Source: a virus. From it: 47,471 nucleotides of DNA. A program made the translations under genes and the position numbers. The notes beneath the pieces are model-generated. The model saw only the letters and a list, made by a program, of their open reading frames with translations, searched no databases and was not told the DNA's origin. The stretch covers positions 1 through 47,471 of IMG/VR virus record IMGVR_UViG_3300017917_001575. One strand, 5' to 3'. Below, piece after piece: positions 9,645 to 47,027 of the stretch (position 1 is its first letter; each line of letters starts with the position of its first letter).

Positions 9645-10871
9645 TTAGTATTGATATGTGATAATTATATTTGTTCCTACTTGTGGTTCATTTATAAATG
9701 TTATCTTTCTCAAATCTGAAATAACATAATCCACATCTTGTACTAAATTTTCACCATTAGTTAATGATAAAATTTTAACTATATCATGATTTAATGTAAT
9801 ATAATTTGTAAAACCATTATAAGTTTGTAATTCAACTGTTGTAGTTAAAGAATTTTCATCTTTTATAAATGTACTATTTTTTTTCTTTTTAAAATAAATT
9901 ATAGTAATAACATCATTAGTCGTTAATGGTACTACTAAAGTTATTTTAGGTGTATATGTTACATGATAAAAATCAACATCTTTACTTAAAATAATACCAT
10001 TTTTACTAACACTATGTAATTCACCAATACTTTCACCTATATTAATTGTAGTTTGATTATTAATTCCATTAATATTTAAAGCAAAAATTTCTTCATCATA
10101 TAAATTTATTTTTTTTGGTTTATTTGGTGTTGTTGATAATTCATTCATTAAAACAAATTTATTTAAAGATGGTTTAACTTCAAATTCATCACTATCCAAT
10201 AAAACACCTTGTAATAAGAAATTATATGTTTGAATATAGAATCTACGATTTTCTAAATCATTTGGTGTACTATCATTAATACTTTCAAGTAAAATTGGTA
10301 TATAATGTCCTTTTATTTTTGTATATGATTGTCTTGATGTAAATTTTTGTAAAATAATTCTATTAAAATTATTTAAGTCTTTTATTTTTGTACAAACAAT
10401 CGTTACATCATATTTTATTTCAACTGGAACAGGCATTGGTATTTTATAAATTTCACTATTCATTTGATTACCATCCCAAGTTTTAACTGTTTTATAAAAA
10501 AATGTTCTTCTTTCTGGTATTGTATAAAATTTATTATTTCCAAGTTGAACGTCAGGTTTTCTAATAATAGCTATGAAAGGTATTTTCATGTTATTACTTT
10601 CATCCATATTATTCCAATTGTTTGAAATTTCACTCCATCTTTGTATTGTTAATATTTTAGGTATAATAGGTATTTCTTCACCATCAGATGTTATTTTAAA
10701 ATATTCTTTACAATATTCCAACATTCCTAAATCTAAATCATTATGTAAAATACTATCAGGAAGATTAGTATCTGATTTAATAATCTCATTTAATAATTCT
10801 TCTCTTCTACTATTATTATCAATTGATTTAACACCGTAAACCTTTATATTATTTTTTCTTTTAGTTATCAT
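9645..10871 (-). CDS. Virion structural protein near neck/tail completion genes
   Basis: The 408-residue product has no catalytic motif that I recognise. Residues 120-250 contain a run typical of tail or neck structural proteins of large T4-like phages: MPVPVEIKYDVTIVCTKIKDLN, FTSRQSYTKIKGHYIPI and NRRFYIQTYNFLLQGVLLDSDEFEVKPSL. The C-terminal part (about 255-408) holds two similar beta-rich segments (SKNGIILSKDVDFYHVTY and TNGENLVQDVDYVISD) that look like duplicated small beta domains. Its start codon overlaps the stop of the metallopeptidase gene by 4 nt, so translation is probably coupled. It precedes the sheath in transcription, which fits a tail-terminator or completion role such as T4 gp15, but this is positional inference. 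Confidence 0.55.
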   Translation of the reverse strand: MITKRKNNIKVYGVKSIDNNSRREELLNEIIKSDTNLPDSILHNDLDLGMLEYCKEYFKITSDGEEIPIIPKILTIQRWSEISNNWNNMDESNNMKIPFIAIIRKPDVQLGNNKFYTIPERRTFFYKTVKTWDGNQMNSEIYKIPMPVPVEIKYDVTIVCTKIKDLNNFNRIILQKFTSRQSYTKIKGHYIPILLESINDSTPNDLENRRFYIQTYNFLLQGVLLDSDEFEVKPSLNKFVLMNELSTTPNKPKKINLYDEEIFALNINGINNQTTINIGESIGELHSVSKNGIILSKDVDFYHVTYTPKITLVVPLTTNDVITIIYFKKKKNSTFIKDENSLTTTVELQTYNGFTNYITLNHDIVKILSLTNGENLVQDVDYVISDLRKITFINEPQVGTNIIITYQY

Positions 10872-11470
10872 AATTTAGATGTAATTGTGGTATTATAAAA
10901 TATTTCACCAACACCAATAATATCTGTATACCCTTTTTCTTCAACCATATTAATCATTTTTCTAAGGTGTTGAATAAAAAATGTAATAGGAGCATCAAAA
11001 TAACCTTTTGGTGTCATAATAAAATCATATTGTTTAAATTTATTCATAAATTCTCTCATTTTTCTTGTTGCAAATTCATCAGCAACATCTTCACAATATT
11101 TTAAATGTTTTGCACCTTCTTCTACTGTAATTCTTTTAGTGAAAATTTGATACATTTTTTCTGCACCATATTTTTTATATTGATATTCATGTGCTAATTC
11201 ATGAAATAAAACAAAAACAAGTTTAGAAAAATCAGATGATCTTATTGATTTTGATGTTAATAATAAATTACTTAAATAAACACCATCATGTAAAGCCAAT
11301 CCAAGTGCTGGTATATTGAAATCAACAAATTCAATTTTTTGACAATTAGATTTATTTATTACATCTTCAATAAATGGAAATGTTTTTTCCATTACAGGAA
11401 AATTTTCTTTTAGAATATCAAAAAAATTTTGATGATTATTACTTTCAATTAAATATTTTTTAAATTTCAT
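10868..11470 (-). CDS. Zinc metallopeptidase (HELAH) with capsid-targeting-like N-terminus
   Basis: This 200-residue protein has the zinc protease motif H90-E-L-A-H94 after a hydrophobic strand (FSKLVFVLF) and a downstream E127-D-V-A-D131, the ExxAD pattern that supplies the third zinc ligand in gluzincin-like families. The N-terminus MKFKKYLIE-SNN has the form of a T4 capsid-targeting peptide with an (L/I)-x-E cut site, so the peptidase may be packaged in the head and injected. It sits in a translationally coupled trio with neck and tail genes (4-nt overlaps at both ends). Other options are a prohead maturation role or host-protein cleavage after infection. No signal peptide or membrane helix is seen. 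Peptidase call is firm; role is inferred. Confidence 0.75.
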   Translation of the reverse strand: MKFKKYLIESNNHQNFFDILKENFPVMEKTFPFIEDVINKSNCQKIEFVDFNIPALGLALHDGVYLSNLLLTSKSIRSSDFSKLVFVLFHELAHEYQYKKYGAEKMYQIFTKRITVEEGAKHLKYCEDVADEFATRKMREFMNKFKQYDFIMTPKGYFDAPITFFIQHLRKMINMVEEKGYTDIIGVGEIFYNTTITSKL

Positions 11471-11979
11471 ATCCCTTTAAATTCATTTTCTAATGCTATT
11501 GTACAAACAATTGTTCTATAAAATGGTTTATAACCATTCATAAAATGACCACTATCTGACACTACTTTACCATCATTAACAACAGTATAATATCTTATTT
11601 TATCTTCAGTTTCTACATAACCAATAAAATCACCAAAATTTATATCAATATTTAACTCTTCTAAATGTTTAATATAAACAGAAACTGTCATATTACCAGG
11701 TTCTAAATACCTTACCATTCCTGATGAATATGAATTATTTTTAGGTGATTCAATTTTTACCAAACCGTAAAATTCAATAGGTGGTAAAAATTTTATTTCA
11801 TCTTTACCAACTTCACCATAAACATTATCAATATCTGTATTTTGATAATCAACACGGTATAAAACTAATTTTTGTGATATGTCACCATGTAAATACTCTT
11901 GACCAATTTTTATATTGAAATCAAAATCATCTTGTGAGTAAAATTTATTTAATCTATTTATTGGTAATTTATTGCTCAT
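11467..11979 (-). CDS. Neck or head-tail connector-like structural protein
   Basis: The product has 170 residues and is beta-rich with no enzymatic motif. The segment DFDFNIKIGQEYLHGDISQKLVLYRVD, then a phrase KFLPPIEFYGLVKIESP and MVRYLEPGNMTVSVYIKHLEELNIDINFGD, resembles small virion proteins next to neck genes in large marine T4-like phages. It is the first gene of the minus-strand run into the sheath and overlaps the peptidase gene by 4 nt. A TATTTATA octamer lies 9 nt before its start (11989-11996 on the plus strand). A structural role is likely; homology to a specific T4 neck protein was not shown. Confidence 0.5.
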   Translation of the reverse strand: MSNKLPINRLNKFYSQDDFDFNIKIGQEYLHGDISQKLVLYRVDYQNTDIDNVYGEVGKDEIKFLPPIEFYGLVKIESPKNNSYSSGMVRYLEPGNMTVSVYIKHLEELNIDINFGDFIGYVETEDKIRYYTVVNDGKVVSDSGHFMNGYKPFYRTIVCTIALENEFKGI

Positions 11980-12049
11980 GTTAATAAATATAAATATATA
12001 TTGTTTTTATTAAAAAAAAATATTATTTTTACATTTAAATAGTAAATAT

Positions 12050-15000
12050 ATGCAAAAACAAATTCCTGAAATAGAGGCTAGAGAAATATTAAGTGAATAC
12101 CAAGGTTCTAATAATCAATTATTAGAGTGGAAAGATAAATTTATTACTCAAAAATCATTTTCTTTAACAAGACCACAATCAGAATATGTGTTGAAATATC
12201 ATAATGTTAAGCCAAAGGTAGCTAAAAAATATGTGAATATTGTTAATTCTTTTGGAGAAAAATTAGCTGAAGATAAAATGTTAAGTAAAATACCTGATAA
12301 AATATGGTGTGAAAAATTATTATGTGAATCAGATAAAGCCTATAATTTTTGGGGTAAAATTAATGATAATGAAAAATTAAATAGTTTTTGGATACCTAAA
12401 AGTGCTATTTTACAAGAAGAAAAAAAATTAAATAGAGTTATAGATTATAGTAAATACACTGAAAGACCACCATTGGAGCATCAAAAAGTTGCTATTGAAA
12501 AATTATTAGCTAATAATAAATTTATTTTAGCTGATGATATGGGATTAGGTAAAATGGAATTATCAACCAATAGAGTATTTACACCTTATGGTAGAAAAAA
12601 GATAGGTGATTTAGTTATTGGTGATAAAGTAATTGGTTCAGATGGTAATTCGTATAATGTTACAGGTGTTTTTCCACAAGGTAGAAAAGAAACATATAAA
12701 GTTACATTTAGTGATGAATTTAGTGTAATTGTTGGTGGTGAACATTTGTGGCACGTTATGTCACCAAATATGTATAAAAATATCAATGATTATTTTGTTT
12801 TTTCTACTGAACAAATGTTAAGTACTGAAAAATTAAGAATGGTTGGGAAAAATGGTAAATTTTATAATTTAGACCCACATTTTAAATATAAGGATGGGAA
12901 AAATAAATGGGCAATACCATATGTGAAACCAATTAATTTTGAATTAGATGACATTTTAGATGTTGATCCTTATGAATTTGGTTTTAAGATTTCACAAGGT
13001 GATTATCAATATTTAGAAAATAAAACCGAAATAAAAATACCTAATAAATTCAAATATAGTACAGTTGAAAATAGAATATCCTTATTACAAGGATTATTAG
13101 ATGGTGGTGCTGAATGTGAATTTTCAGAAAGATACAAATTTAAACAAATTGAATTTAAAACAAAATATGAAAATTTATGTGATGATTTAATTGAATTGAT
13201 TCAAACTTTAGGTGGTATTGCTAGGAAATTAATAATTTCTGATGGGTTTAGGGTTACAATGAAAATACCAAAAACAATTAAACCATTTACGAATGAAAAA
13301 AAATTGGATGAATATGTTGAACCTAAAATCACACCAATTAGAAGATATATTAAATCAATAGAAAAACATACTGAAGAAGAATGTGTTTGTATATCTGTTG
13401 ATTCACCAGATAAATTATATGTTACTGAACATTGTATTATCACACATAATACAACATCAGCAACTATTGCTTCAATTGAAAGTGGTGCAAAAAAAATATT
13501 AATTGTTTGTCCTGCTTCATTAAAAATAAATTGGAAGCGTGAAATCATGAACTATACTGATAGACCAATTCATATTGTTGAAGGTCGTAAATGGGCGAGT
13601 GACCATGATTATTATATTATCAATTATGATATTTTAAAAAATTTCCATTCAACTGATAATGAAAATGAAAATGATGATTATAAATTACTAATCAATGAAA
13701 AATTTGATTTAGCTATTGTTGATGAAGCACATTATATTTCAAATAGTGAATCAAATAGATCTAAATTATTAACAGATGTTTTATCGAAAATATCTAAAGT
13801 TTGGTTATTAACTGGTACACCATTAACATCAAGACCAATAAATTATTATAATCTTTTAAAAATTATTGAATCACCATTATCATATAATTGGCAATATTAT
13901 GTAAAAAGATATTGTGCAGGTTATCAATTTAGAGTTGGTAATAGAAAAATTTGGAATATCAATGGTGCTAGTAATTTAGATGAATTACGTGAAAAAACAA
14001 AAAATAATATATTAAGAAGATTAAAAACTGATATATTAGATTTACCTGAAAAAATTGTTACACCAATTTTCTTAGAATTAAATAGTAAAATGTATGATGA
14101 GGAATTGGAAGATTTTATGAAAATCACTAATGATAAAAAAGAAAATGAAACAATTACAGTTACATTAAATAGATTGATGAGGATTAGGCAATTGATTGCT
14201 TATGAAAAAATACCATATACATGTGAATTAATTGATAAATTTATTGAACAAGGTAAGAAAGTAGTTGTTTTGACAAATTTCACTTTATCTTTAGATACGA
14301 TACATGAAAAATATAAAAAAAATTCAGTCATTTTAAATGGGTCAATGTCTAAAGAAAAAAAACAAGAATCTGTTGATAAGTTTCAAAATGATGATAAAAT
14401 AAAAGTTTTTATAGGTAATATTAAAGCTGCAGGTGTCGGTATCACATTAACAGCTGGTGAGGTTGTGATAATGAATGATTTATCATTTGTACCTGCTGAC
14501 CACGCACAAGGTGAAGATAGATGTTTATTTAAAAATCAAGATATTTTAACTGATAAAGGTTATAAAAAAATAAGCCAAATAAAAGTTGGTGATTATCTTT
14601 ATACACATAATGGTAATTTCAAACGTGTTACCGATGTTATGAGAAAATTAAATAGAGGTAAAAATAAAGTTGAATTGAAAATTATCGGTTCAAAAAAACT
14701 TATATCTGTAACTGATGACCACAAAATTTATATCTATGATAAAACAGATAAAGAATTTAAATGGATTGAAAGTGGTAAAATAAATATAGATAATCATTTT
14801 TTAACTTTTAAAACAAATAAAATTAATAATAAAATAAATGAAAATTTAAATGTTGTTTTTAAAAGTGGTTTGGAAAAAAATTTCGTTATCACCAATGAGT
14901 TACTGTATTCGTTAGGTTATTTCTTATCAAATGGTTGGATAGATGGTGAAAAAAAATCTATTAACATTGATTTAAATTTAGGTAAAATAAAATCTTATAA

Positions 15001-15718
15001 TAGTGAAAGAAATTTAATTACGTTGTTTAAAAAACTATTTGAAATTAAAAATACTTTTGAAACTAAAGTAAGTAACAATATAATTCGTAATTCATTTGTA
15101 TCTGAAGATTTATATTATTTATTTTATGATTGGTTTGGTGAAAAAGATTATGAATTAAAAATACCATCATGGATTCTTGAATTACATATTGAACAAATAA
15201 AATGGTTTTTAAAAGGTTTTGAACAAAATGGATTTATTCAAGATAAGAAAAAATCAATTATCAAATCAAGATCATCTTTATTAATTTCACAATTTTTGAT
15301 GTTATATAGTTCTTTAGGTGAAGGTGTTATTTATAAAAGATTGAGTGACGTGAATTATGTTTTAGAAATAGAAAATTATAAAAATTTCAGAAATAAATAT
15401 TATAGACACCATAAAGGTTATATACTTTATCCAATTGAAAGTTTTAGTATTAAAAAGACAAATAATAAAAAAGAACATTTATTTGACTTTACTGTTGAAG
15501 ATGACCACTCTTTTGTGGTAAACAATATCAATGTTCATAATTGTTATAGATATGGACAAAAAAATAATGTTTTGATTTACTATCCTGTATTTGAAAATAC
15601 AATAGAAAAAATAGTCTATAACATTCTTCAAAAAAAGAAAAATATTATAGACCAAGTTATGGGTGATGGAGATTTTTCTGAATCGTTTAGCAAAGAATTA
15701 ATTCAACAAATTCTTTAA
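12050..15718 (+). CDS. SNF2-family DNA helicase interrupted by two inteins
   Basis: After removal of two inteins the mature protein is 583 residues. Helicase motifs are all visible: LEHQKVAIEKLLANNKFILADDMGLGK (motif I, split after Lys168), ILIVCPASLKINWKRE (Ia), VDEAH at 557-561 (II), LLTGTPLTSRP near 586-596 (III), VVVLTNFTLSLDTI (IV), and GVGITLTAGEVVIMNDLSF...DHAQGEDR/CYRYGQ (V and VI, split by intein 2). This is the SNF2/HepA/SMARCAL1-type order and a plausible counterpart of T4 UvsW in recombination, fork regression or replication. Both inteins sit in ATP-binding or hydrolysis motifs, so the enzyme cannot work until splicing is complete. The 3' end overlaps the convergent gene by 21 nt. 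Confidence 0.85.
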   Translation: MQKQIPEIEAREILSEYQGSNNQLLEWKDKFITQKSFSLTRPQSEYVLKYHNVKPKVAKKYVNIVNSFGEKLAEDKMLSKIPDKIWCEKLLCESDKAYNFWGKINDNEKLNSFWIPKSAILQEEKKLNRVIDYSKYTERPPLEHQKVAIEKLLANNKFILADDMGLGKMELSTNRVFTPYGRKKIGDLVIGDKVIGSDGNSYNVTGVFPQGRKETYKVTFSDEFSVIVGGEHLWHVMSPNMYKNINDYFVFSTEQMLSTEKLRMVGKNGKFYNLDPHFKYKDGKNKWAIPYVKPINFELDDILDVDPYEFGFKISQGDYQYLENKTEIKIPNKFKYSTVENRISLLQGLLDGGAECEFSERYKFKQIEFKTKYENLCDDLIELIQTLGGIARKLIISDGFRVTMKIPKTIKPFTNEKKLDEYVEPKITPIRRYIKSIEKHTEEECVCISVDSPDKLYVTEHCIITHNTTSATIASIESGAKKILIVCPASLKINWKREIMNYTDRPIHIVEGRKWASDHDYYIINYDILKNFHSTDNENENDDYKLLINEKFDLAIVDEAHYISNSESNRSKLLTDVLSKISKVWLLTGTPLTSRPINYYNLLKIIESPLSYNWQYYVKRYCAGYQFRVGNRKIWNINGASNLDELREKTKNNILRRLKTDILDLPEKIVTPIFLELNSKMYDEELEDFMKITNDKKENETITVTLNRLMRIRQLIAYEKIPYTCELIDKFIEQGKKVVVLTNFTLSLDTIHEKYKKNSVILNGSMSKEKKQESVDKFQNDDKIKVFIGNIKAAGVGITLTAGEVVIMNDLSFVPADHAQGEDRCLFKNQDILTDKGYKKISQIKVGDYLYTHNGNFKRVTDVMRKLNRGKNKVELKIIGSKKLISVTDDHKIYIYDKTDKEFKWIESGKINIDNHFLTFKTNKINNKINENLNVVFKSGLEKNFVITNELLYSLGYFLSNGWIDGEKKSINIDLNLGKIKSYNSERNLITLFKKLFEIKNTFETKVSNNIIRNSFVSEDLYYLFYDWFGEKDYELKIPSWILELHIEQIKWFLKGFEQNGFIQDKKKSIIKSRSSLLISQFLMLYSSLGEGVIYKRLSDVNYVLEIENYKNFRNKYYRHHKGYILYPIESFSIKKTNNKKEHLFDFTVEDDHSFVVNNINVHNCYRYGQKNNVLIYYPVFENTIEKIVYNILQKKKNIIDQVMGDGDFSESFSKELIQQIL
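12554..13450 (+). other. Intein 1 (299 aa), class 3 type, in the Walker A motif
   Basis: The insert covers residues 169-467, between GLGK and TTSATIAS. It starts with Met rather than Cys or Ser, so class 1 chemistry is not possible. It instead has the complete class 3 WCT set: Trp234 two residues after the block B His (GGEHLWHV), Cys447 at the fourth position of block F (ECVCISVDSPD), and Thr465 before the terminal His-Asn (IITHN), with +1 Thr468. Class 3 inteins are known from phage helicases and the same SNF2 P-loop site. The central part has a degenerate LAGLIDADG-like LLQGLLDGG without the usual Asp, and no clear first motif, so the endonuclease is probably dead. Confidence 0.85.
14522..15541 (+). 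other. Intein 2 (340 aa), class 1 type, in helicase motif VI
   Basis: The insert covers residues 825-1164, between GEDR and CYRYGQ. It begins with Cys825 (CLFKNQDILT) in a standard block A, has TxxH in block B (SVTDDHKIY), a normal block F (HLFDFTVEDDHSFVV), and ends in His1163-Asn1164 with +1 Cys1165, so standard class 1 splicing is expected. Two LAGLIDADG-like motifs remain (LGYFLSNG near 955-962 and FLKGFEQNG near 1053-1061), but the catalytic Asp before Gly is Asn in both. Cleavage activity is therefore probably lost while splicing residues are intact. Confidence 0.88.
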
Positions 15719-20878: not shown

Positions 20879-22699
20879 TTAATCGAATTTTCGTTTTTTC
20901 ATATATAAATTGTATAATTCTCTATATTCCAAAATTTCATCATTTTTTAAATAATATAATTGTTCTTCTTTAATTATTCCACCATCATTAATAAATTTTT
21001 TTAAGTTTTCAACTGATAAATAAGTATAATCATTTATAGGGATTTTATTTTTAATGTGAAAAAAATAAATAATATCATAATTATTTAAAAATAATTTTTT
21101 TAAATCTTCATTACTATAAATAATTTTTATATATCTTTCCACATTACTAAAATAATTATTATCATATAAATCATATAAATCATTAATATATTCACTAATA
21201 GTAGTTGTTTGAAAAAACATATCATATAAATATTCACTTAGATAATCATCAAAACCATATATAGATGATATATTTTTAAATAATTTTTCTGAACAAATAT
21301 TTTTATACTTATTAAAAATATATTTATCATTATGAATTCCATCTAAAATATCATTTGGGATTTCTGAATTATCATCTATCATTAATTTTATGTAATTTAT
21401 TATTTGTGTATCTGATAAATTATAAAAAATATCAATATCAATATCTATTCCATATTCTTCTATTAAATAATTAATAACATATTCATCAGTATTAAAAATT
21501 ATATAAAATAAAAAATTTTTACCTAAAAGTTCGTTTAATTTTAAAATATTAGTTTTATTTAAATTATATATTACATTTGATAATACACTTTTAAAATTTG
21601 ATTTTGTTTGGTCAATATTTTTACGTATCATAATGTCTTTAGTGTATTTTTCAAAAAATTTAATAAAATTATCATAAAAAATTGAATCATCTAATATAAT
21701 ACCTGTTTTAAAAAATGTTACACCTACCATCCTTTCATAATTTTTAAACTCCTCAACGTATTTAGGATGTTCATTAAACTCCAAGTATTCTTTTTGTTTA
21801 TATGTTAATTCATTACCTTGATTTATGTATGAATGAATTATTTTTAATGGTGTATGATTTATAAACATTTCATCAGTTAAATAATTTTTACTTATATAAA
21901 TTAATTTATCTTTAATTGATAATTCACTATACTCTTTATCACTTAATTTTGTAATGAATTTTTTTTCATCTGAAGTTAATTTTTTATGTGTAAAAATATT
22001 TTTATAGTCATTTATATCAGGGAATATATTAATTATTTCATCCCAAGTCATAGTAATGTCACCATCATTTTTAGCACTAGTTACTATATACTTTCCATTC
22101 TTTAATACTTGAATAACAAAAAAACAATATTTTAAACTTTTTTCTAAAAATTTAAATGAAAATGTTCTTTTAACAATATCACTATTTAACAAATCTACAT
22201 TTTTCACAAAATAAAATGTTGTTTCTTCTTCACTTAATCTATAATAGTAATATTCATTTCCTTCATTCATAAAAACACACCATCTCACATCAAAACCACC
22301 TTTTATTTCTACACACCCTTTTGGTGTATTCGCTCTTTGAATAACTATTTTATCATTTTCTATTAATGTTTCAGAATCTATTAAATTAGCATCAAAATCA
22401 TTTTTATTATAATTTTGTCTATCAATATAGTCAATAAATAATTTTAATTTTTCAAAATCTTTAAAATTATCAATATTATTTCTTAAATTAGAATCCATAA
22501 TATTATCGAGATAATTGTTTTTCAATTTAAAATTTATATTATTACTATTTTTATATTTCTGATATAAATTTGTATATTTTTCAATTTCTTCATTATTAAT
22601 ACCATCGTTACGGTATTTTTTTTTCATATCAGATAAACTTTCATTTAAAAAAATATTTATGATATTTTTAAATTGTTTTTCTTTTAATAATATTTTCAT
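20879..22699 (-). CDS. Uncharacterised candidate capsid-cargo protein with W-C domain
   Basis: The N-terminus MKILLKEKQFKNIINIFLNE-SLSD resembles a capsid-targeting propeptide ending in L-N-E. Residues about 118-165 carry a recognisable phage domain: IQRANTPKGCVEIKGGFDVRWCVFM, then EYYYYRLSEEETTFYFVKN, that is, a W140-C141 pair followed by a YYxR and FYFV strand. I have seen this pattern in uncharacterised proteins of large phages but know no function. From about residue 230 on, the protein is a long run of Asn/Tyr/Ile/Asp-rich helices with repeated ..EYLIxxG/N-like units suggestive of ankyrin-like or similar helical repeats. It heads toward the polymerase and starts 1 nt after the next gene. 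Confidence 0.5.
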   Translation of the reverse strand: MKILLKEKQFKNIINIFLNESLSDMKKKYRNDGINNEEIEKYTNLYQKYKNSNNINFKLKNNYLDNIMDSNLRNNIDNFKDFEKLKLFIDYIDRQNYNKNDFDANLIDSETLIENDKIVIQRANTPKGCVEIKGGFDVRWCVFMNEGNEYYYYRLSEEETTFYFVKNVDLLNSDIVKRTFSFKFLEKSLKYCFFVIQVLKNGKYIVTSAKNDGDITMTWDEIINIFPDINDYKNIFTHKKLTSDEKKFITKLSDKEYSELSIKDKLIYISKNYLTDEMFINHTPLKIIHSYINQGNELTYKQKEYLEFNEHPKYVEEFKNYERMVGVTFFKTGIILDDSIFYDNFIKFFEKYTKDIMIRKNIDQTKSNFKSVLSNVIYNLNKTNILKLNELLGKNFLFYIIFNTDEYVINYLIEEYGIDIDIDIFYNLSDTQIINYIKLMIDDNSEIPNDILDGIHNDKYIFNKYKNICSEKLFKNISSIYGFDDYLSEYLYDMFFQTTTISEYINDLYDLYDNNYFSNVERYIKIIYSNEDLKKLFLNNYDIIYFFHIKNKIPINDYTYLSVENLKKFINDGGIIKEEQLYYLKNDEILEYRELYNLYMKKRKFD

Positions 22700-22700
22700 T

Positions 22701-23231
22701 TTATATTGTAAAATCAGGATATGATTTATTTTTATTAAATTTATTTTTATTAATTGTTTCGTTTCTGTTTAAAATATCTGATTTAGAACCCACTACGCCA
22801 TCATTATCACCTTTACCTTTTTCATCACCATTTGATATTGCGTTTGGATTATTACTATTATATTCGTTTTTATTTGTATAAATATTTTTAGATAAAAGTT
22901 CTTTTCTTGCAGCAATATCTGATTTAGAACCAACAGCACCATTATAATCACCTTTACCTTTTTCATCATTATTAGATAAAGCGTTTGGATTATTACTATT
23001 ATATTCATTATTTTTTGTATAAATATTTTTATTAATAGTGTTAATTCTAGTGTTTATATCTGTTTTACTACCTATTGTCCCATTATTATCACCTTTACCT
23101 TTATCATCGCCATTTGATAAAGCGTTTTTATGATTTGAACTATAAAAATTTTGTTGATTATATGTGTTTTTAGTAATAACTTCATTTCTTAATTTTTCTG
23201 AAATCAATTCTAATTGTGTTTTATTTTCCAT
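22701..23231 (-). CDS. Repeat protein with three 47-residue GDxKGKG units
   Basis: The 176-residue product consists almost wholly of three tandem repeats starting at residues 36, 83 and 130, with the core NALSNGDxKGKGDxNGxxGSKxDI followed by a linker ending NKNxYxxNNxYNSNNP. The period is exactly 47 residues. The N-terminus MENKTQLELISE-KL also ends in an (L/I)-x-E site, so it may be processed and packaged like its neighbours. Gly, Asn, Asp and Lys richness suggests an extended or disordered chain. Repeats of this style occur in structural proteins of other Bacteroidetes phages as far as I recall. It lies in a close run of four minus-strand genes. Function unknown. Confidence 0.55.
   Translation of the reverse strand: MENKTQLELISEKLRNEVITKNTYNQQNFYSSNHKNALSNGDDKGKGDNNGTIGSKTDINTRINTINKNIYTKNNEYNSNNPNALSNNDEKGKGDYNGAVGSKSDIAARKELLSKNIYTNKNEYNSNNPNAISNGDEKGKGDNDGVVGSKSDILNRNETINKNKFNKNKSYPDFTI
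22719..23126 (-). repeat. Three tandem 141-bp repeats inside a coding region
   Basis: Each unit encodes 47 residues with the core GDxKGKGDxNG. Copies begin at about 23126, 22985 and 22844 (minus strand). The middle and third copies share the string KNEYNSNNPNA, pointing to recent duplication. Confidence 0.8.
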
Positions 23232-23724: not shown

Positions 23725-24463
23725 CTTTATTTAATAGTTTTAATATTTGGTCTTTTTTCAAACCATGTGTTTTAATACTTTTCTTTAATGAATTTATTTG
23801 TTTTAAAATAATAGGATTTATTTCCTCATCTTCAACATTATCTTTTTCAAGAATATCATTACTCTTATATTTATTCGTTATAAGTTCATCAATATATTCC
23901 TCAATAAATTTTTTAGGATTTTCAATCATAATGATTTTATCTTTAGGTAATTTTTTATTATAACCTAAATTTTTCATTTTTTCTAATGCTTGTTCTTTAT
24001 CTAAACCTAATTTTTTTGTGAAATATTTGTACGCTTTATCAAATGATAAATCTTTTTCTATGGTTTCTTCAGCACCTAAATTTTGACCCAATTCAACTTC
24101 TAAAATCTCACCCCATCTTCTGGTATAATTTTGAACACCGAACTTACCATAAACACTACCAGCACCTGTTGCTTTAATAACATCATCAGTTGTTTTCTTT
24201 TGTGTGACATTTTTAGTATTGAAATTTAATGGTTTTTTTTCTGTTTGAACTACACCTAATTCATCTACTATTTCATCAACATCTTTTTTATTGTCTGGTA
24301 ATTTTTTAAAATCAGTTTTAGATGAAAATTCTTTAGCCCATTTACCCCATTTATTTCTTTCTTTTTTAGGTAAATTTTTGTCATTTGCTTTTGCGTAGAA
24401 ATATTTTTGTTGAGATTTTGATTTAAACTCTTCTTCTATAATGTTTTTTATAAAATTATTCAT
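23717..24463 (-). CDS. Candidate capsid-cargo protein with SKxQQxxFYAKA basic domain
   Basis: The 248-residue protein starts MNNFIKNIIEE-EFKSKSQQ, with I-I-E or I-E-E as possible prohead protease site. Directly after it comes FKSKSQQKYFYAKANDKNLPKKERNKWGKWAKEFSSKTDFKKLP, a short basic module of the SKAQQ-type found in many small phage and bacterial proteins. A middle part has GSVYGKFGVQNYTRRWGEIL and the C-terminus two charged helices with DLSFDKAYKYFTKKLGLDKEQALEKMKNLG. The positive charge would suit packaging beside DNA. It is first in the four-gene minus-strand run and lies divergent to the fibre genes that start at 24518, with a 54-nt shared promoter region. Function unknown. Confidence 0.5.
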   Translation of the reverse strand: MNNFIKNIIEEEFKSKSQQKYFYAKANDKNLPKKERNKWGKWAKEFSSKTDFKKLPDNKKDVDEIVDELGVVQTEKKPLNFNTKNVTQKKTTDDVIKATGAGSVYGKFGVQNYTRRWGEILEVELGQNLGAEETIEKDLSFDKAYKYFTKKLGLDKEQALEKMKNLGYNKKLPKDKIIMIENPKKFIEEYIDELITNKYKSNDILEKDNVEDEEINPIILKQINSLKKSIKTHGLKKDQILKLLNKDE

Positions 24464-26855: not shown

Positions 26856-28598
26856 ATGAAAATAAAATTAACAGAAAAACAAATAAGATTAATTATTCAA
26901 GAATCTATTGGTTATAAATATGTTAAACGATATTTAGAACCTAATAGAAACGATGAAATTGAAAATAGATTAAAAAATATTTTTGAAACATTAAAAACAA
27001 ATCCTGAATATATTGATTCTAATAGAAATGGTGATAGATTATATTTTAAATTTATTGAATCAGTTTATTTAATAGTAGAGAATATTATTGATAAAATTAA
27101 TAAAATATCAGATGAAAATTATAAACTAACACCTGATTTATTTAAATCGAATCTTATTGAAGTATCATATAAAACAAAATTAAATCAAGATAAAATTCAA
27201 AATTTTTCACTTATTAAAATTTTATCAAAATTTGTTAATAAAATTGATGAATTCAACGAAAATGATTTTAATAATTTAAAAATAAAATTAGATAAATTTT
27301 TTGATATTAGTAGAAAAACTGACCAAGATTTAATAACATCAAATTTATATGTGGTCATTTCTAAAGCAAAATATGATTTAGCTGCTATGTCAGGAAATAG
27401 AAATTGGAAAAGTTGTATGACAATCCCCACTAAAGAAAATAATGATTTCAATGGTGGAAATTGTCGTTTTATTTTGAAAGATATAAAACAAGGAACGTTG
27501 ATTGCTTATATAATAAAGAGTGATGATAAAAATATAAATAATCCGATTAGTAGAATGTTAATAAAACCTCATTTTTCAAAAAATGGTGATGTTTTATATA
27601 AACCAGAAGATAAAATTTATGGTACATATGATAAAGATATATTATATCCATATCTTACGGAAATATTAACAAAAGTTAATGAAAATAGTAAAGATGGGTT
27701 TTATACTAAAGATTCCGAACTTTATGATGATGATTTAGTAACAAAAATTTTTGTGAATAAAAATTTAGTTAAATCATTAAAACAATACGGTTATAATAAA
27801 GAATTTATAACTGATGGTCAAATTGAAAAATTTTTAATCAAAAATAGTAATAATAATAATTTTTTTAAAATATTAGAAATATTAGATAATTTCAATTTAG
27901 AAGAGTATTATTTGGAAATTTATGATCGTATAAATTTATATAAAAAATTAAATACTTACAAAACTTATATTGATAAATCACAATATAGTATTAAAAATTT
28001 AAAATTATTAAAAGTAAATAATTTTAAAAAATTTGAAAAATATTTATTAAATATGTTAGATATTGATAATTTTATTGAATATTTTTTGGATGAAAATTTA
28101 ATAACATATAAAGATAAATTTCAAACAGAAATTACAAGATTTTTGTATAATAATGAAAAATATTTAAAATTATTGATTGATAATAAAGATTATTTTTGCG
28201 GTCAAGAATTTAAAACAAAAATAAATTTAATTTATGCCATAACAGTTATGTTTAATATGGATTTAACTGATAATTTTTTAATAGATTATTTTATCGAAAA
28301 CGATTGTTTAAGTGATTATGATATTGATGAAACAATTTTTAATTTATTAAATAATTTTAAATTTTTTAATTATATAATTAATAAACCCGATTTCACTAAA
28401 AAATTAAAAGAATATGGTTATGAAAATTTCATTAAAATGACATATAATAATAATAGAAAATTTAAAAATCATATATTTGAAAAAATTAAAAATAAATTAA
28501 GTACTGAAGAATATAACGAATTTTTTAATAAAATTGACAAAGTTGAAAAAAATTATATTGATACAGATAAATTATTACATAAATTTATGAATAGATAA
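26856..28598 (+). CDS. Candidate capsid-cargo protein, paralogue A
   Basis: The 580-residue protein begins MKIKLTEKQIRLIIQE-SIGY; the first 16 residues are identical to those of the next gene and end in I-Q-E, a T4-type prohead cleavage pattern. The middle shares with the paralogue YVVISKAKYDLAAMSGNRNWKSCM (Trp184, Cys187), then GTLIAYIIK, NPISRMLIKPHF and KIYG, forming one conserved domain of about 110 residues. The C-terminal 300 residues are a series of Tyr/Asn/Asp-rich helical units (NFKKFEKYLLNML.., TRFLYNNEKYLKLLIDN) that may be ankyrin-like repeats. No known catalytic signature. Spacing to both neighbours is 1 nt, so it is co-transcribed. An injected host-takeover factor is a hypothesis only. 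Confidence 0.5.
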   Translation: MKIKLTEKQIRLIIQESIGYKYVKRYLEPNRNDEIENRLKNIFETLKTNPEYIDSNRNGDRLYFKFIESVYLIVENIIDKINKISDENYKLTPDLFKSNLIEVSYKTKLNQDKIQNFSLIKILSKFVNKIDEFNENDFNNLKIKLDKFFDISRKTDQDLITSNLYVVISKAKYDLAAMSGNRNWKSCMTIPTKENNDFNGGNCRFILKDIKQGTLIAYIIKSDDKNINNPISRMLIKPHFSKNGDVLYKPEDKIYGTYDKDILYPYLTEILTKVNENSKDGFYTKDSELYDDDLVTKIFVNKNLVKSLKQYGYNKEFITDGQIEKFLIKNSNNNNFFKILEILDNFNLEEYYLEIYDRINLYKKLNTYKTYIDKSQYSIKNLKLLKVNNFKKFEKYLLNMLDIDNFIEYFLDENLITYKDKFQTEITRFLYNNEKYLKLLIDNKDYFCGQEFKTKINLIYAITVMFNMDLTDNFLIDYFIENDCLSDYDIDETIFNLLNNFKFFNYIINKPDFTKKLKEYGYENFIKMTYNNNRKFKNHIFEKIKNKLSTEEYNEFFNKIDKVEKNYIDTDKLLHKFMNR

Positions 28599-28599: not shown

Positions 28600-30333
28600 A
28601 TGAAAATAAAATTAACAGAAAAACAAATACGTTTAATAATTCAAGAAGCGTTTGTACCTAAAGAAGATGTTAAAAATTTTTTAAAATTAGACAATGAAAA
28701 AGATTTTTTAGTTAGAAGACCTAATGAAATAAAAAAATCTTTAAACAATATATTTGACAAATTAAGAGAAAAAAGTATTCCTGAACTTAATAATGATCCT
28801 GATAGATTATATTTTAGATTTTCAGAAGATGACGTTTTAAATATATTATTGAATAGAATAAAAAAAATATTAATTAAAATTAATGATTATAATCAAAAAA
28901 ATAAAATTAATATTGAATATTATATTGATTATAATTTATTTAAAGACAATCAATTAGAACAAATCAACAAAGATGAGATTGGTAAATTTGTTATGAAAGA
29001 TGGTCAATATGCTTTAGATTCTGAAGGAAATAAAAGACAAGTAAAATATAAATATCCTAAGAAAATAATAAACATATTAGAAATGTATGTTAATAAAATT
29101 TCTAATTTTAATGAGAAAAAATTTTCCGATTTAAGAGATAAATTAAGTGTTTATTTTGGTAATACTAAAAATTTAAAAATTGAGAACCAAAATTTAATTG
29201 TTCTATCAAAAAAACCATACGATATTGTAGGTATGTCATCTTGTAAAGATTGGACTAGTTGTATGAACATTTATGATGGTATCCATAAAGAAAAAGTTAA
29301 AGATGATATTCGTGAAGGTACAATAGTGGCTTATTTAATTAAACCTGATGATTTAGAAATAGAAAATCCAATAAGTAGATCTTCAATAAAACCATTTATT
29401 TCACAAAATGACTCAAATGATATAATGTATAAAACTGAAGAAAAAGTTTATGGTCAAAAATTTAGTATAGATAAATATTTAAATAATTTTATATTACCGT
29501 TAATAAATCAAAATAAAATAAATTACCCTTATATTAAAAATTCAAAACTATATAATGATGATAGTAAAAGTGTAATAAATGAACCAATTTATGATTCATA
29601 TAATAGTTATGATGTTATACATATTTTAAATAAAAATTTAAATAGTGATAAATTTTATGAAATTTTAGAAGAATTTGATGATTCAGAAATAGAATATTTA
29701 AATTTATATTTATTTGACCATATTGACATTTATAGGAAAATTAACACTTTTGAACCATATATAGAAAATTCAATTTATAGTATAAAAAATTTACAAATAT
29801 TAAAAGAAAATAATTTTAATAAATTTCAATATTTTTTAGATCAATTAAAAAGAGAAAGATATTTCTTTAAAATTGTAGATTATTATGTTGAAGAAAATTT
29901 AATAAAATACAATGATATGTATGAAGATTATATAATAATATATTTACTTAATTCTTCTAATTTTTTAAAAAGTGTTTTTGAAAATAATTATTATATTCAA
30001 ATTCTTAAAAATTTTAAAAATAAAAAATCGGATGATTTATTTTTATCAATGAATATTATAGTTAATTATTATAATAAAATTAAAGGTTTTGATATTAGTA
30101 ATACTGATATTTTCAGTGAATTAATTAATGAAAACTTATTAGATTATTATATATACAAAAATAATACTATTTCATGGTTGAGTAATTTTGATTTTAAAAA
30201 ATTCTTTGTAAATAATAAATTTTCATTAAATTATCTAAAAGATTACCAAATAGAAAAAATATATAATAATTTAAATGGTCTTGAAAAGGCTTTCTTCAAA
30301 AGTAAAATAATAAATTTAAAAAACAATCAATAA
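28600..30333 (+). CDS. Candidate capsid-cargo protein, paralogue B
   Basis: The 577-residue protein is a tandem duplicate of the gene before it. The two share the leader MKIKLTEKQIRLIIQE (nearly identical in DNA as well), the central LIVLSKKPYDIVGMSSCKDWTSCMNIY (Trp218, Cys221), GTIVAYLIK, NPISRSSIKPF and KVYG, and helical C-terminal repeats (SIYSIKNLQILKENNFNKFQYFLDQL matching SQYSIKNLKLLKVNNFKKFEKYLLNM). Between leader and core, sequences diverge and an extra segment (about 125-150) is present here. This points to an old duplication with the leader and core kept by selection. Function unknown; the domain is one I recall from uncharacterised large-phage proteins. Confidence 0.5.
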   Translation: MKIKLTEKQIRLIIQEAFVPKEDVKNFLKLDNEKDFLVRRPNEIKKSLNNIFDKLREKSIPELNNDPDRLYFRFSEDDVLNILLNRIKKILIKINDYNQKNKINIEYYIDYNLFKDNQLEQINKDEIGKFVMKDGQYALDSEGNKRQVKYKYPKKIINILEMYVNKISNFNEKKFSDLRDKLSVYFGNTKNLKIENQNLIVLSKKPYDIVGMSSCKDWTSCMNIYDGIHKEKVKDDIREGTIVAYLIKPDDLEIENPISRSSIKPFISQNDSNDIMYKTEEKVYGQKFSIDKYLNNFILPLINQNKINYPYIKNSKLYNDDSKSVINEPIYDSYNSYDVIHILNKNLNSDKFYEILEEFDDSEIEYLNLYLFDHIDIYRKINTFEPYIENSIYSIKNLQILKENNFNKFQYFLDQLKRERYFFKIVDYYVEENLIKYNDMYEDYIIIYLLNSSNFLKSVFENNYYIQILKNFKNKKSDDLFLSMNIIVNYYNKIKGFDISNTDIFSELINENLLDYYIYKNNTISWLSNFDFKKFFVNNKFSLNYLKDYQIEKIYNNLNGLEKAFFKSKIINLKNNQ

Positions 30334-30335: not shown

Positions 30336-30773
30336 ATGAACAATTTAAATAACTTAATAAGAAATAATATTAGAAAAGAACTTTTATTATTAAAAGAACA
30401 AGAATCAAAAAATTATATGTTCTTTAAAAATATTGAACAAATAAAAGAACAATGTGAAAATATATTAAAAATGAATCAAAATGAAATTGATAATATATTA
30501 TTAAATGGTCATGATTGGGCAGATGACCATATTACTGTCGCTAAAGAAAAAATTGATGATGTATTTGATTTTTTAAAAGGTGAAATGAGAACAAATATTC
30601 AAGAAATCCAAGTAATGGATGAAGCAAAACATAAACCAACTAATCCTAAGTTATGGAGTCAATGTCTATCATGGGCAAGAAGTAGATATAAAGTTTGTCC
30701 ATCAGCTTATTGTAATGGTGCTGCTGCTAAAAGATATAAACAAAAAGGAGGAAAATGGAAAACCGAAAAATAA
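30336..30773 (+). CDS. Candidate capsid-cargo protein with YPSAY-like C-terminal module
   Basis: The 145-residue protein starts MNNLNNLIRNNIRKELLLLKE-QESK, an amphipathic leader ending in L-K-E. The C-terminus HKPTNPKLWSQCLSWARSRYKVCPSAYCNGAAAKRYKQKGGKWK is a module common in marine phages and giant viruses (NP.LW.R....A+..+.VYPSAYAN..A...Y+..GG.W), here with Cys in place of the first Tyr of YPSAY and of the Ala before Asn. I believe this corresponds to a DUF5872-type domain but am not sure of the number. Its last 19 nt overlap the next gene. The basic tail could bind nucleic acid. Function unknown. Confidence 0.55.
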   Translation: MNNLNNLIRNNIRKELLLLKEQESKNYMFFKNIEQIKEQCENILKMNQNEIDNILLNGHDWADDHITVAKEKIDDVFDFLKGEMRTNIQEIQVMDEAKHKPTNPKLWSQCLSWARSRYKVCPSAYCNGAAAKRYKQKGGKWKTEK

Positions 30774-31045
30774 AAAAAGAACTACCATTTGAAGAAAATT
30801 TTCTAAATGGTTTTTATGAAAGGACATTTTCAAAGGATTTAAGTGAAAATGAATTAAAATGGCATTGGGATGAAGAAGATAGATATGTAATATGTGAAAA
30901 TAATACAGATTGGAAATTTCAATTCGATAATCAATTACCAATTGAAATAAAAAGAAATGAACCAATATTTATTAAAAAAGGTGAATATCATAGAATTATT
31001 AAAGGTAATAACGATTTAAAATTAAAAATAAAAAAAATTAAATGA
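30755..31045 (+). CDS. Small cupin-like protein
   Basis: This 96-residue protein overlaps the gene before it by 19 nt and the next gene by 4 nt, so it is translated in a coupled group. An ATG at 30755 follows GGAGGAAA, the clearest Shine-Dalgarno match noticed in the window. The segment LKWHWDEEDRYVICENNTDWKFQFDNQLPIEIKRNEPIFIKKGEYHRIIKGNNDL reads like a minimal cupin barrel: WHxDxEDR, then W.(F/I)Q.DN.LP, then IPKGxYHR(I/L)IKG. Possible metal ligands are His36, Asp38 or Glu39 and the late His. It lacks the capsid-targeting form at its N-terminus. A small-molecule or metal-binding role is possible; function unknown. Confidence 0.55.
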   Translation: MENRKIKKELPFEENFLNGFYERTFSKDLSENELKWHWDEEDRYVICENNTDWKFQFDNQLPIEIKRNEPIFIKKGEYHRIIKGNNDLKLKIKKIK

Positions 31046-32016
31046 AAATATTAGTTAATGAAGAGGATTTAATTTTAATTGAAGAATTAATTTCTGAAGG
31101 AAAAATCTTAAAAGAAGATTTAAAAAGATGGTTTAAAGAAAAATGGGTAGATGTTTCAAAAAAAGTAAATGGAAAACATCCACCATGTGGAAGACAAGAT
31201 ACAAGTAAAGGTGGTTATCCTAAATGTCGACCATTGAAAAAAGTTTCTAAAGAAACACCTAAATTGGCAAATTCTTATGATAAAAAAGAAAAAGAAAAAT
31301 TAGTAAATAAAAAACGAAGAGCAGAAAAGAAAAATCCTAAAATAGGAAAAGGAAATAAACCAACATTTACTGGAGATATAAAAGAGAACGAAATCAATGA
31401 AAGTCAAGTTATTAGTCTTAACATGGAAAAGCGTACAATTAATGAGAACAATACTAACATATTGTATTTAAATGAAAATAAAATAAGTGATGGTATTAAA
31501 TATCATGTTAATAACAATTTACCTTTAACTGAAAATGTTTTTAGAATTTATTCAAAAGAATATTTTAATCTTTTAAATGAATCAAGAAAACTATATACTA
31601 AAGGTGTTTTAAATTTAACAAATGATGATATTGAATTATTAAAAACTGACATAGGTAAAAAAGGAATTTATGAAGGTAAAGAAGTTTATTTAGACATTCC
31701 TTTTATTGATGAAGATGATTTTTTAACCGAAGCTAAACATCATGGTAAAAACGTTCATTTAAATAGACCATTCAGAACACCAGGTGGACCTAAAAAATTC
31801 GCTGTTTATGTAAAAACACCAAAAGGGACAATTAAAAAAGTAACATTTGGTGATCCTAACTTAAAAGTAAGAAATAATAATCCTAAAGCTGCAAAATCAT
31901 TTAGAGCAAGACATAAATGTGATCAGAAAAAAGATAGAACTAAAGCTGGTTATTGGTCATGTAATGTTTCTAGGTATCGTAAAAGTTTGGGAATAAAAAG
32001 TAGTAGACCTTGGTAA
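31042..32016 (+). CDS. Candidate capsid-cargo protein, basic, two Cys-containing modules
   Basis: The 324-residue protein opens with MKILVNEEDLILIEELISE-GKIL, an acidic-amphipathic leader ending in I-S-E. It is followed by KWVDVSKKVNGKHPPCGRQDTSKGGYPKCRP (Cys49, Cys62), a module familiar from marine phages and large DNA viruses. The C-terminal 95 residues HHGKNVHLNRPFRTPGGPKKFAVYV, VTFGDPNLKVRNNNPKAAKSFRARHKCDQ and YWSCNVSRYRKS form a second module widely seen in T4-like cyanophages, usually as a separate small protein. The two modules are joined by a Lys/Glu/Asn-rich linker of about 150 residues containing additional N-E-(S/N) sites. Fusion of two common viral modules in a single packaged protein is suggested. 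Function unknown. Confidence 0.55.
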   Translation: MKILVNEEDLILIEELISEGKILKEDLKRWFKEKWVDVSKKVNGKHPPCGRQDTSKGGYPKCRPLKKVSKETPKLANSYDKKEKEKLVNKKRRAEKKNPKIGKGNKPTFTGDIKENEINESQVISLNMEKRTINENNTNILYLNENKISDGIKYHVNNNLPLTENVFRIYSKEYFNLLNESRKLYTKGVLNLTNDDIELLKTDIGKKGIYEGKEVYLDIPFIDEDDFLTEAKHHGKNVHLNRPFRTPGGPKKFAVYVKTPKGTIKKVTFGDPNLKVRNNNPKAAKSFRARHKCDQKKDRTKAGYWSCNVSRYRKSLGIKSSRPW

Positions 32017-32019: not shown

Positions 32020-32967
32020 ATGAAAAAAATATTTTTAAGTGAACAAAATTACAGAAAAACCGCTAAAACAAATAAAATAGAAAAAGCTATTACTAATAGA
32101 CATCCTGTTTCATTTTTTTATAGAGGTTTAGAAGCTAAAACAGGTGTAAGAATTAAAGCTGAAATAGTTGCTTTAGGTTTAAGTAAAAGAAATAATTTAA
32201 TTGTAAGAGCATATATACAATATCCATCGGTTACTAAAAAAGGTTTTGATAAAACACATTGGAGAACATTTATTGTTAATCAAATGAGAAATATTGTTGT
32301 TCATGAAGATGAACAATTTACTGTTCAAAGAGAACAATATAAGATGGGTCAAGAATCATCAAAAAGTCCTATGTTAATAACTTATTTAACTACTAAATGG
32401 GATGATGTTAAAGAACCTGAAATCGAACCTGAAATTGAGCCAGAGGTAGAACCTGAAGTAGAACCCGAAGAAGAACCAGAAGTAGAGCCAGAGGTAGAAC
32501 CTGAAGAAGAACCTGAAGTTGAACCCGAAGAAAAACCAGAAGAAGAACCTGAAGAAGAACCTGAAGAAGAACCATATGATTTTAATAATTTACCTGAACC
32601 TAAAGTCACAGAAAAACCATCTGCAACACCTGATACTTATGAAAAAGATTTAGCTTCTGATGTTTTTAAAGAATTGGAAAGTTCAGTTATAAATGTTAAT
32701 AATCAAAAATTCATAACGACACAAGATTATGAAAAATATGTTAGAATGTTATTTAGTAAAAAAGTTAAGGATTGGCAAGAAAAACAAAAATCAATAGGTG
32801 TCAATATTAAAGCAGGTGAAGGAACAAGACGTAAAATAGAAATAACATCAAATACTGAATTGTCTAATTTATTAAATAAAAATAAAATTAAAGTAACTAA
32901 TATTATACCTCAACAATTACAAGAAAGTATTGACAGAATAAAAAGTTTAATGTTTAAAATAATTTAA
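32020..32967 (+). CDS. WYL-like domain protein with EPE(V/E) repeats and cargo-type leader
   Basis: The 315-residue protein begins MKKIFLSE-QNYRK, a very short leader ending in L-S-E. Residues 22-95 resemble a WYL domain: KAITNRHPVSFFYRG, RIKAEIVALGLSKRNNLIVRAYIQYPS, HWRTFIVNQMRNIVV (an I..A(I)..R..V.f.Y start, then xxxP..LG..+.g..(L/V)RA, then WR.F.(V/L)(D/N).I..I.V). WYL domains bind nucleic acid or nucleotides and regulate defence and CRISPR genes in bacteria. An acidic Pro/Glu linker of 54 residues (132-185) follows, then a Lys-rich helical C-terminus. A packaged WYL protein could act on host regulation at once after injection; this is speculation from domain style. Confidence 0.5.
   Translation: MKKIFLSEQNYRKTAKTNKIEKAITNRHPVSFFYRGLEAKTGVRIKAEIVALGLSKRNNLIVRAYIQYPSVTKKGFDKTHWRTFIVNQMRNIVVHEDEQFTVQREQYKMGQESSKSPMLITYLTTKWDDVKEPEIEPEIEPEVEPEVEPEEEPEVEPEVEPEEEPEVEPEEKPEEEPEEEPEEEPYDFNNLPEPKVTEKPSATPDTYEKDLASDVFKELESSVINVNNQKFITTQDYEKYVRMLFSKKVKDWQEKQKSIGVNIKAGEGTRRKIEITSNTELSNLLNKNKIKVTNIIPQQLQESIDRIKSLMFKII
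32413..32574 (+). repeat. 12-bp tandem repeats coding for EPE(V/I/E)
   Basis: About 13.5 units of a 12-bp repeat encode 54 residues of E-P-E-(I/V/E), with GAACCTGAA and GAACCCGAA codon variants. It forms a rigid acidic linker and could change length by slippage. Confidence 0.85.
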
Positions 32968-36681: not shown

Positions 36682-36870
36682 GGTTATAGAGGAGAAATTA
36701 AAGTGGTTTTTAATATTTTAAAAAATAAAGAAGAGTTAAAAATTTATAATGTCGGAGATAGAATTTGTCAATTAATTATTTTACCTTATCCTAGTGTAAA
36801 ATTTATTGAAGTTGATGAGTTAAGCGACAGTAACAGAGGTGATGGTGGGTTCGGTTCATCTGGACAATAA
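36682..36870 (+). CDS. dut: dUTPase, exon 2
   Basis: Exon 2 codes for 62 residues that complete the enzyme: GYRGEI (second half of motif 3), NVGDRICQLII (motif 4, GxRIxQ) and RGDGGFGSSG (motif 5, the flexible P-loop-like C-terminal tail that closes on the phosphates). The ATG at 36679 is produced by the intron terminal bases and is probably not a real start. No frameshift or loss is seen, so the spliced enzyme should be active. Confidence 0.88.
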   Translation, partial: GYRGEIKVVFNILKNKEELKIYNVGDRICQLIILPYPSVKFIEVDELSDSNRGDGGFGSSGQ

Positions 36871-45105: not shown

Positions 45106-45136
45106 AATTAAGATATTTATATAATAAAAATATATA

Positions 45137-46510: not shown

Positions 46511-46511
46511 A

Positions 46512-47027
46512 ATGAAATTAGAAAATTATATAAAAAAAATTATATTAGAACATTTAGAAAATGAAAAAGAAATGAAAGATATTCTATTAAAAAGAATACC
46601 ATTTTTAAATGATTTTACAGATTACTCACCACAAAATGAAGAATATAAAAATTCATTATTATATAAAAAAGAAGGCGTTACAAAAGATTTCCAAATGGTT
46701 ATAGATGATAACGAAATTATTACATTTCCTGCCTGTTTCACAACTGTTAAAGTAATTTATCATCCATATAAAAATTTATCAATTTTTTCTGTTGATTTTA
46801 GTTTAACTTTAGTACCACCAAGTGATATGACAAATACACAAGAAGCAAGTGAAATAATTAAAATAACAAATGATGTTTCTGAAAAATATACATATTACGA
46901 TGATGTATATATACCTGATGGTAGAACTATTTCTAAAGAAAATTTAGATAGAATTATAAATCAAATGAATGGTGCTTTATTTAGAATTGAAGATTACACA
47001 AATAAAATTGGTGTTAATCTTTTTTAA
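46512..47027 (+). CDS. Phage protein with cargo-like N-terminus at end of baseplate operon
   Basis: The 171-residue protein starts MKLENYIKKIILE-HLENEKEMKD, ending in I-L-E, like the other candidate capsid-targeting leaders, but the leader region here merges into a longer helix, so it may simply be an N-terminal helix. The body is beta-rich (IITFPACFTTVKVIYHPYKNLSIFSVDFSLTLVPPSDM) without recognisable motif. It follows the structural gene by 1 nt and is the last gene before the terminator, so it is co-transcribed with baseplate genes. A baseplate or appendage role is equally plausible. Function unknown. Confidence 0.4.
   Translation: MKLENYIKKIILEHLENEKEMKDILLKRIPFLNDFTDYSPQNEEYKNSLLYKKEGVTKDFQMVIDDNEIITFPACFTTVKVIYHPYKNLSIFSVDFSLTLVPPSDMTNTQEASEIIKITNDVSEKYTYYDDVYIPDGRTISKENLDRIINQMNGALFRIEDYTNKIGVNLF

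Follow-up and report, generated by a model that had tools for sequence, protein, structure and literature searches.

Why do so many otherwise unrelated proteins encoded by a single phage contig begin with short peptides that end in the same three-residue motif? The contig is IMG/VR virus record IMGVR_UViG_3300017917_001575, whose 47,471 bases, referred to here as the window, derive from an uncultured AT-rich T4-like myovirus. The original prediction listed ten N-terminal peptides ending in (L/I)-x-E and read them as T4-style capsid-targeting leaders on a set of injected effectors. We put at about 0.8 the probability that at least five, perhaps eight, window genes (26856, 28600, 20879, 30336 and 32020; possibly 23717, 10868 and 46512, each named by its lowest coordinate) start with T4-type capsid-targeting propeptides that work as follows. 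Late in infection, an amphipathic leader of 8 to 21 residues would dock the protein on the scaffold core while the prohead is being assembled. The Glu that closes (L/I)-x-E would then mark the cutting point of the S77 (gp21-type) prohead protease, as INE↓A does in the major capsid protein (the arrow marks the cut). The body would thereby be freed inside the head, and some of the cargo would probably be ejected with the DNA into the next host. A few leader families, namely A (K-x-[IL]-TESQLK-x-[IL]-..), B ([QL]xEx..R[IM][KQ]x[LV][MA]G-I-..E) and short T4-like ones, would serve as interchangeable address tags for dozens of unrelated bodies, most of them uncharacterised.

All ten listed peptides were present in the window exactly as written, and the motif by itself said little about them. 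[LI]xE ended at residues 8 to 22 in 14 of 44 window open reading frames (ORFs) versus 9.1±2.6 after shuffling (P=0.049), and across 646 families of relatives [LIVMF]xE was about as frequent internally as N-terminally, except for a small bump at residues 7 to 9. The bare (L/I)-x-E set in the window is close to chance, and comparative evidence was thus needed to sort the list. A related tail sheath is encoded in at least 597 IMG/VR stretches. ORFs of relatives were taken from 20 records and about 160 loci with a simple longest-ORF caller; start sites are the output of this caller, and family counts vary with the BLAST thresholds.

Leader family A follows the pattern MKK-x-x-I-T-E-S-Q-L-K-x-I-...-(L/I)-x-E and has three window members (26856, 28600 and 20879). 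A loose pattern around TEx(Q)Lxx was N-terminal in 18 families and internal in 7 (45 times per residue). A profile with the consensus (I/K)-(I/K)-(I/L)-T-E-S-Q-L-K-(K/R)-(I/L)-(I/M), trained partly on the same genomes on which it was scored, recovered about 30 families at a leave-one-out score of at least 14. Applied unchanged to four further, mostly distant genomes (capsid protein 50 to 77% identical), it gave 20 N-terminal families and, although internal windows were 15 times as numerous, 12 internal ones. No homologue in the training set existed for 15 of the 20, and among the internal hits several came from starts called too far upstream or from tandem leaders. When degenerate DNA encoding exactly MKKxx-TESQLK was sought, 27 IMG/VR stretches matched, as did a single one of 84,980 bacterial and archaeal genomes, and a residue-swapped control (TESQ to ETQS) returned no hits in the same scan of IMG/VR.

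The end of the leader was assessed in 59 A leaders selected on nine core columns only. [LI]xE lay within 18 residues after the core in 50 of them, compared with 19.6±3.2 in per-segment shuffles (maximum 30 in 2000), and the alternative ends [LI]E, [LI].K/R, [LI].N/Q and [LI].D were at or below shuffle level. When V, M and F were also allowed at P3, I or L held this position in 49 of 52 leaders (49:3) versus 89 of 165 internal controls (89:76; p=1e-8). The residue after the Glu was mostly Q, S, E, N or G, and the 50 leaders with a site fall on 47 body clusters, that is, about 47 unrelated bodies. At least 120 IMG/VR stretches encode leader family B, MK(K/Q)xLNExxRMQxLAG(I/L)IxE. Among the matches listed, the in-frame cases formed 55 body clusters; 54 ended in [LI]xE (shuffled 24.3±3.7, maximum 35), and in 41 the residue next to the Glu was S, N or G. 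The related form LQENIxRIKxVM was N-terminal 25 times, C-terminal 9 times and never internal.

Leaders were also exchanged on one body in four families. A small body (..FA.TR.GGA.KI...A..KGG..) starts with MIKFFDILNE↓S, MKLIEMLNE↓G or MKVILSESQLKRIIE↓S, and with MRLLELLRE↓A in Flavobacterium phage immuto; homologues of the 20879 body in relatives (hhalign E 3e-6) start instead with MKITDLLLE↓Q or MKFTELLFETLTE↓E; and a third exchange family carries leader A in G029 and leader B in G038. Tandem A leaders occur within one protein in G027_30859 (L202:10859-12178) and G056_124998 (L313, C1 124998-125810), and A leaders lie at fusion junctions in relatives, where a DUF5872 protein is joined to a family-14 body. 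These tandem and junction leaders suggest polyprotein-like release.

The peptides could nevertheless be unconnected, if AT-rich, Glu- and Ile-rich proteins simply produce (L/I)-x-E at random and a recent duplication accounts for the identical pair. The bare motif, marginally enriched in the window and not genome-wide, agrees with this, and chance accounts for 22701 and perhaps for 10868 and 46512. It leaves unexplained, however, the TESQLK and RMQxLAG leaders shared by dozens of unrelated bodies, the (L/I)-x-E ends in 50 of 59 and 54 of 55 cases and the leader exchange. It also fails for the pair itself: as first claimed, 26856 and 28600 carry identical leaders on diverged proteins, with 16 of 16 residues the same through three synonymous nucleotide changes and only 38% identity afterwards. 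For leader families A and B chance is already refuted, and as a general account it is quite improbable.

Evidence for a matching protease came from the relatives. T4 gp21 has the published cleavage rule L/I-X-E (PMC9026906). Two sheath-sharing relatives, G002 and G005, have S77 (PF03420) genes in a T4-like arrangement with the genes for terminase, portal, a scaffold-like protein and the capsid protein. Among long leader-bearing records, S77 was carried by 9 of 9 with leader A (107 kb or longer) and, among the matches listed, by 10 of 10 with leader B (79 kb or longer); these 19 records are all T4-like. The gp21-like protease proposed as a check on the original prediction was lacking from the window fragment and present in its sheath-sharing relatives. 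The capsid protein of the relatives carries the site ENQASYLINE↓AA in 50 of 52 sequences, and SYLINE↓S in G056 and G061. We take this INE↓A site to correspond to the T4 gp23 cut. Cutting after the Glu of the leaders is predicted. In T4 IPIII, Asp in this position prevents the cut and leaves targeting intact.

A cultured relative, Flavobacterium phage vB_FspM_immuto (NC_055915; host Flavobacterium sp. LMO8), has a major capsid protein 40% identical over the aligned part and encodes S77. Its proteins at 25061-25456 and 111675-112139 have a near-identical leader B and share little else (blastp aligned residues 1-33, plus a weak 19-residue match, E 0.011). Cuts after the Glu would make SEMWD.. and SQFNE.. 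the respective first residues of their mature forms, and AKEAI.. those of the 112261-112575 product. Other leader-like immuto genes lie just upstream of the terminase, portal, protease and capsid genes. The immuto annotation is silent on leaders, and it labels a cargo homologue (L336:12261-12575) tRNA(Ile2) C34 agmatinyltransferase; this label is doubtful, since the protein had no NCBIfam match and its G030 homologue no Pfam match. The leader B of immuto matched only immuto phages themselves, and tblastn against isolated phages gave no match for leader A or for the MNLQENIQRIKEVMG form of leader B, both being short queries.

The leaders might instead be some other targeting or assembly signal, such as a tail or baseplate docking element, a phage-nucleus import tag or a degron, with a Glu end that is no protease site. 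Cleavage here is a prediction, leader B is also seen as a tail at the C-terminus and the head module does not include all cargo genes, some of them lying elsewhere, all of which such a signal would accommodate. Yet the end motif is exactly the L/I-X-E of gp21, followed by small polar residues or Q and variably spaced from the core; the leader genes of G002, like those of immuto, adjoin terminase, portal, protease and capsid genes; and C-terminal tails have a counterpart in T4 Alt, which is processed at both ends (PMC9026906). Of the explanations considered, another signal is the least probable. Propeptides for the prohead fit these observations. Packaging of the leader-bearing proteins is well supported, though by inference, as is docking on the core by inference.

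Within the window, comparative evidence upheld the listed leaders of 26856, 28600, 20879, 30336 and 32020, left that of 23717 plausible only and spoke against 22701 and the ISE site of 31042 (Table 1). No homologue of 26856 except its paralogue was found in IMG/VR, and an AlphaFold model of 20879 from three sequences was unusable (predicted local distance difference test [pLDDT] score, 41). In the 30336 family, a hydrophobic-x-E is kept ahead of the body in 16 of 17 distinct homologues, with V frequent at P3, and the leader itself is replaced (MNNLNNLIRNN..LKE↓Q, MKNLESIIRKN..ISE↓Q or leader A). Glu8 of 32020 is invariant in 14 of 14 homologues and P3 is only I or L, with leader length and sequence varying. 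In 23717 homologues both Glu are conserved (14 of 14; I/V at P3), and because the whole N-terminus is conserved too, this plausible leader gives no independent signal. The two remaining candidates, 10868 and 46512, are unconfirmed as leaders, and a homologue search for them found none; the 10868 protein has a metallopeptidase-like HELAH motif (HExxH, read from the translation).

Table 1. Leaders, candidate leaders and related peptides of the window, with predicted cuts
Peptide	Position	Strand	Protein	Predicted cut or status	Leave-one-out profile score
Leader A, MKIKLTEKQIRLIIQE	26856..26903	+	580 aa (amino acids), 26856-28598	After Glu16 (IQE↓S)	25.6
Leader A, MKIKLTEKQIRLIIQE	28600..28647	+	577-aa paralogue, 28600-30333	IQE↓A	
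Leader A variant, MKILLKEKQFKNIINIFLNE	22640..22699	-	606 aa, 20879-22699	LNE↓S	18.7
Leader, MNNLNNLIRNNIRKELLLLKE	30336..30398	+	145 aa, 30336-30773	LKE↓Q	
Leader, MKKIFLSE	32020..32043	+	315 aa, predicted WYL-domain protein, 32020-32967	LSE↓Q	
C-terminal tail, LQESIDRIKSLMFKII, resembling leader B (MNLQENIQRIKEVMGIINE)	32917..32964	+	Tail of the WYL protein 32020 (leader at its N-terminus as well)		
Candidate leader, MNNFIKNIIE	24434..24463	-	248 aa, 23717-24463	After Glu10 or Glu11	
MKFKKYLIE	11444..11470	-	200 aa, 10868-11470	Unconfirmed; T4-like shape only	
MKLENYIKKIILE	46512..46550	+	171 aa, 46512-47027	Unconfirmed	
MENKTQLELISE	23196..23231	-	22701-23231	Rejected as leader	
MKILVNEEDLILIEELISE	31042..31098	+	DUF5872-type protein, 31042-32016 (DUF5872 6.5e-12)	Proposed ISE site rejected	

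A cleavable leader was rejected for 22701, where P1 was E in 7, N in 3, D in 2 and Q in 1 of 13 homologues. This protein contains about three tandem repeats of ~45 residues (..NALSNGDDKGKGDNNGTIGSKTDI..), and relatives conserve it at the same place, with homologues of 125 to 224 amino acids. The ISE site of 31042 was likewise rejected, P1 at residue 19 being S in 20, N in 5 and E in 1 of 28, with E in the window alone. A downstream L-x-E↓D at residue 25, located in the DUF5872-like region, was present in 26 of 26 aligned sequences.

The sequence of 32020 had no Pfam match. Its AlphaFold model (mean pLDDT, 72) had WYL proteins (PafBC, DriD and CapW) as all 13 best Foldseek hits, at a probability of 1.00 and E values of only 4e-3 to 4e-2, and the WYL fold so predicted makes 32020 a candidate packaged regulator, either of transcription or responsive to single-stranded DNA. 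The tail at the C-terminus of this protein possibly acts as a second docking element or propeptide. In relatives, the scaffold-like protein (RMKDLMGKIK) and the S77 protease (RMKKLMGRLD) finish in sequences similar to the WYL-protein tail LQESIKRIKRLMF, and the three leader-B-like tails are possibly a common core-docking element.

Most of the bodies resisted annotation. Pfam and NCBIfam searches of the window cargo gave DUF5872 as the sole match of note, Pfam matched none of 20 further proteins (19 from relatives and 1 from the window), and no homologues of two cargo families beyond the query records were found in IMG/VR. The exceptions, all in relatives, were an InPase plus cREC protein (G053, leader A), a glucosaminidase, a SprT-like protein whose leader is internal and a C39-like peptidase with a leader-A core and no nearby [LI]xE site. 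It could be argued that the leader-bearing proteins are structural core or scaffold parts consumed in head maturation rather than delivered cargo. The 30336 and 32020 families are conserved across the clade and adjoin structural genes, as such parts might, and T4 gp22, gp67 and gp68 have the same sites and are destroyed. Most bodies are nonetheless patchy in distribution and mutually unrelated, and the enzyme domains (InPase plus cREC, SprT, C39 peptidase and glucosaminidase) suit cargo better, making a purely structural role unlikely. Even for cargo, support is weakest for ejection and an effector function; a leader predicts prohead entry and cleavage, not ejection or an effector role, and the label of injected effectors goes beyond the evidence.

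Several observations weigh against capsid-targeting propeptides or limit what can be drawn from the data. Two of the ten listed genes, 22701 and 31042 (for its ISE site), fail the orthologue test, so that the claim of T4-style leaders on unrelated proteins stands on the shared leader families, leader exchange, the (L/I)-x-E end, S77 in relatives and the INE↓A capsid site, without these two peptides. Some A-profile hits are chance (a thioredoxin, a pterin dehydratase-like protein and an SNF2 protein), the first two judged so from their known bodies after the sequences were read. After the A core, [LI]..E was also mildly raised (27 versus 18.7±3.2 in shuffles). The window is a fragment that lacks genes for capsid, portal, terminase and protease, and its leaders are therefore tied to a protease only through relatives. 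The leader phages and the S77 phages belong to the same T4-like lineage, so their co-occurrence partly reflects shared ancestry and provides consistency rather than independent proof. Finally, virion proteomics turned up for none of the phages in this clade.

Genes identified elsewhere in the window include those for the tail sheath, tail tube, baseplate hub and a gp14/neck-type head-tail adaptor, together with DNA polymerase B, PhoH and a sigma-70 region 2 protein. The last (40373-41068; PF04542, at threshold) is possibly a gp55-like late sigma factor. A T5orf172/MUG113 (GIY-YIG-like) ORF at 5752-6276 lies on the opposite strand between the tail tube and tail sheath genes. The SNF2-type helicase gene (12050-15718; 1222 amino acids) carries two Hint/intein-like insertions (PF05203; Hint_2 match sub-threshold), and the 583-residue helicase of relatives is without them. 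A dUTPase-like gene (35346-36870) is interrupted: an HNH endonuclease ORF (35839-36510) and a group I intron (RF00028, 36404-36634, E 6e-16) separate its two pieces.

Few head-packaged proteins are known from T4, and their low conservation makes homology a poor guide to such proteins. A leader that can be recognised from sequence makes a class of probable head cargo in uncultured phages searchable, and the question of which proteins a phage brings in with its DNA becomes directly testable. The candidate cargo likely includes counter-defence proteins, transcription-control proteins and cell-wall enzymes, and the leaders could serve as tags to load chosen proteins into phage heads. There is a slightly better than even chance that many environmental T4-like phages run open-ended loading of this kind, in which a handful of exchangeable, core-docked leaders removed by S77 tag hundreds of unrelated, mostly uncharacterised proteins as head cargo, tandem or internal leaders free several products and the tag is also usable at the C-terminus.

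A literature search that had most subscription journals outside its reach found no paper describing leader families A or B. The closest known system is that of T4 IPI, IPII, IPIII and Alt, unrelated proteins with a short N-terminal propeptide ending in L/I-X-E that is cut by gp21 (S77), the leaders of IPII and IPIII being identical (PMC9026906). The gp21-type protease and gp23-like capsid protein site are alike as well. The leaders described here differ from those of T4 in sequence and are longer (median site at residue 21), a few families of them occur on dozens of unrelated bodies rather than a handful, they are exchanged between orthologues, and tandem and internal leaders occur. Inner-head propeptides of SPN3US and phiKZ also have Glu at P1, and SPN3US gp53 and gp54, with an identical 15-residue N-terminus and bodies 34% identical, are a precedent for the 26856/28600 pair (PMC5694885). 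They differ in having A-x-E or S-x-E sites and propeptides mostly of >100 residues, compared with (L/I)-x-E and 8 to 25 residues here. In P1 DarB, the N-terminal 30 residues suffice to route a reporter to the capsid, and the cargo is counter-defence (PMC9024508). The N-terminal capsid-targeting sequence is thus alike, whereas the head is HK97-like and the protease another. We know of no shared leader families for P1 DarB. Polyvalent proteins include InPase domains, for which packaging and possibly injection were predicted earlier (Iyer et al. 2017; PMC5512222), and the leader-A protein in G053 is of this InPase plus cREC type. The leader cargo here is mostly small and single-domain, unlike polyvalent proteins, and packaging is deduced from gene context for those proteins and from the leader here.

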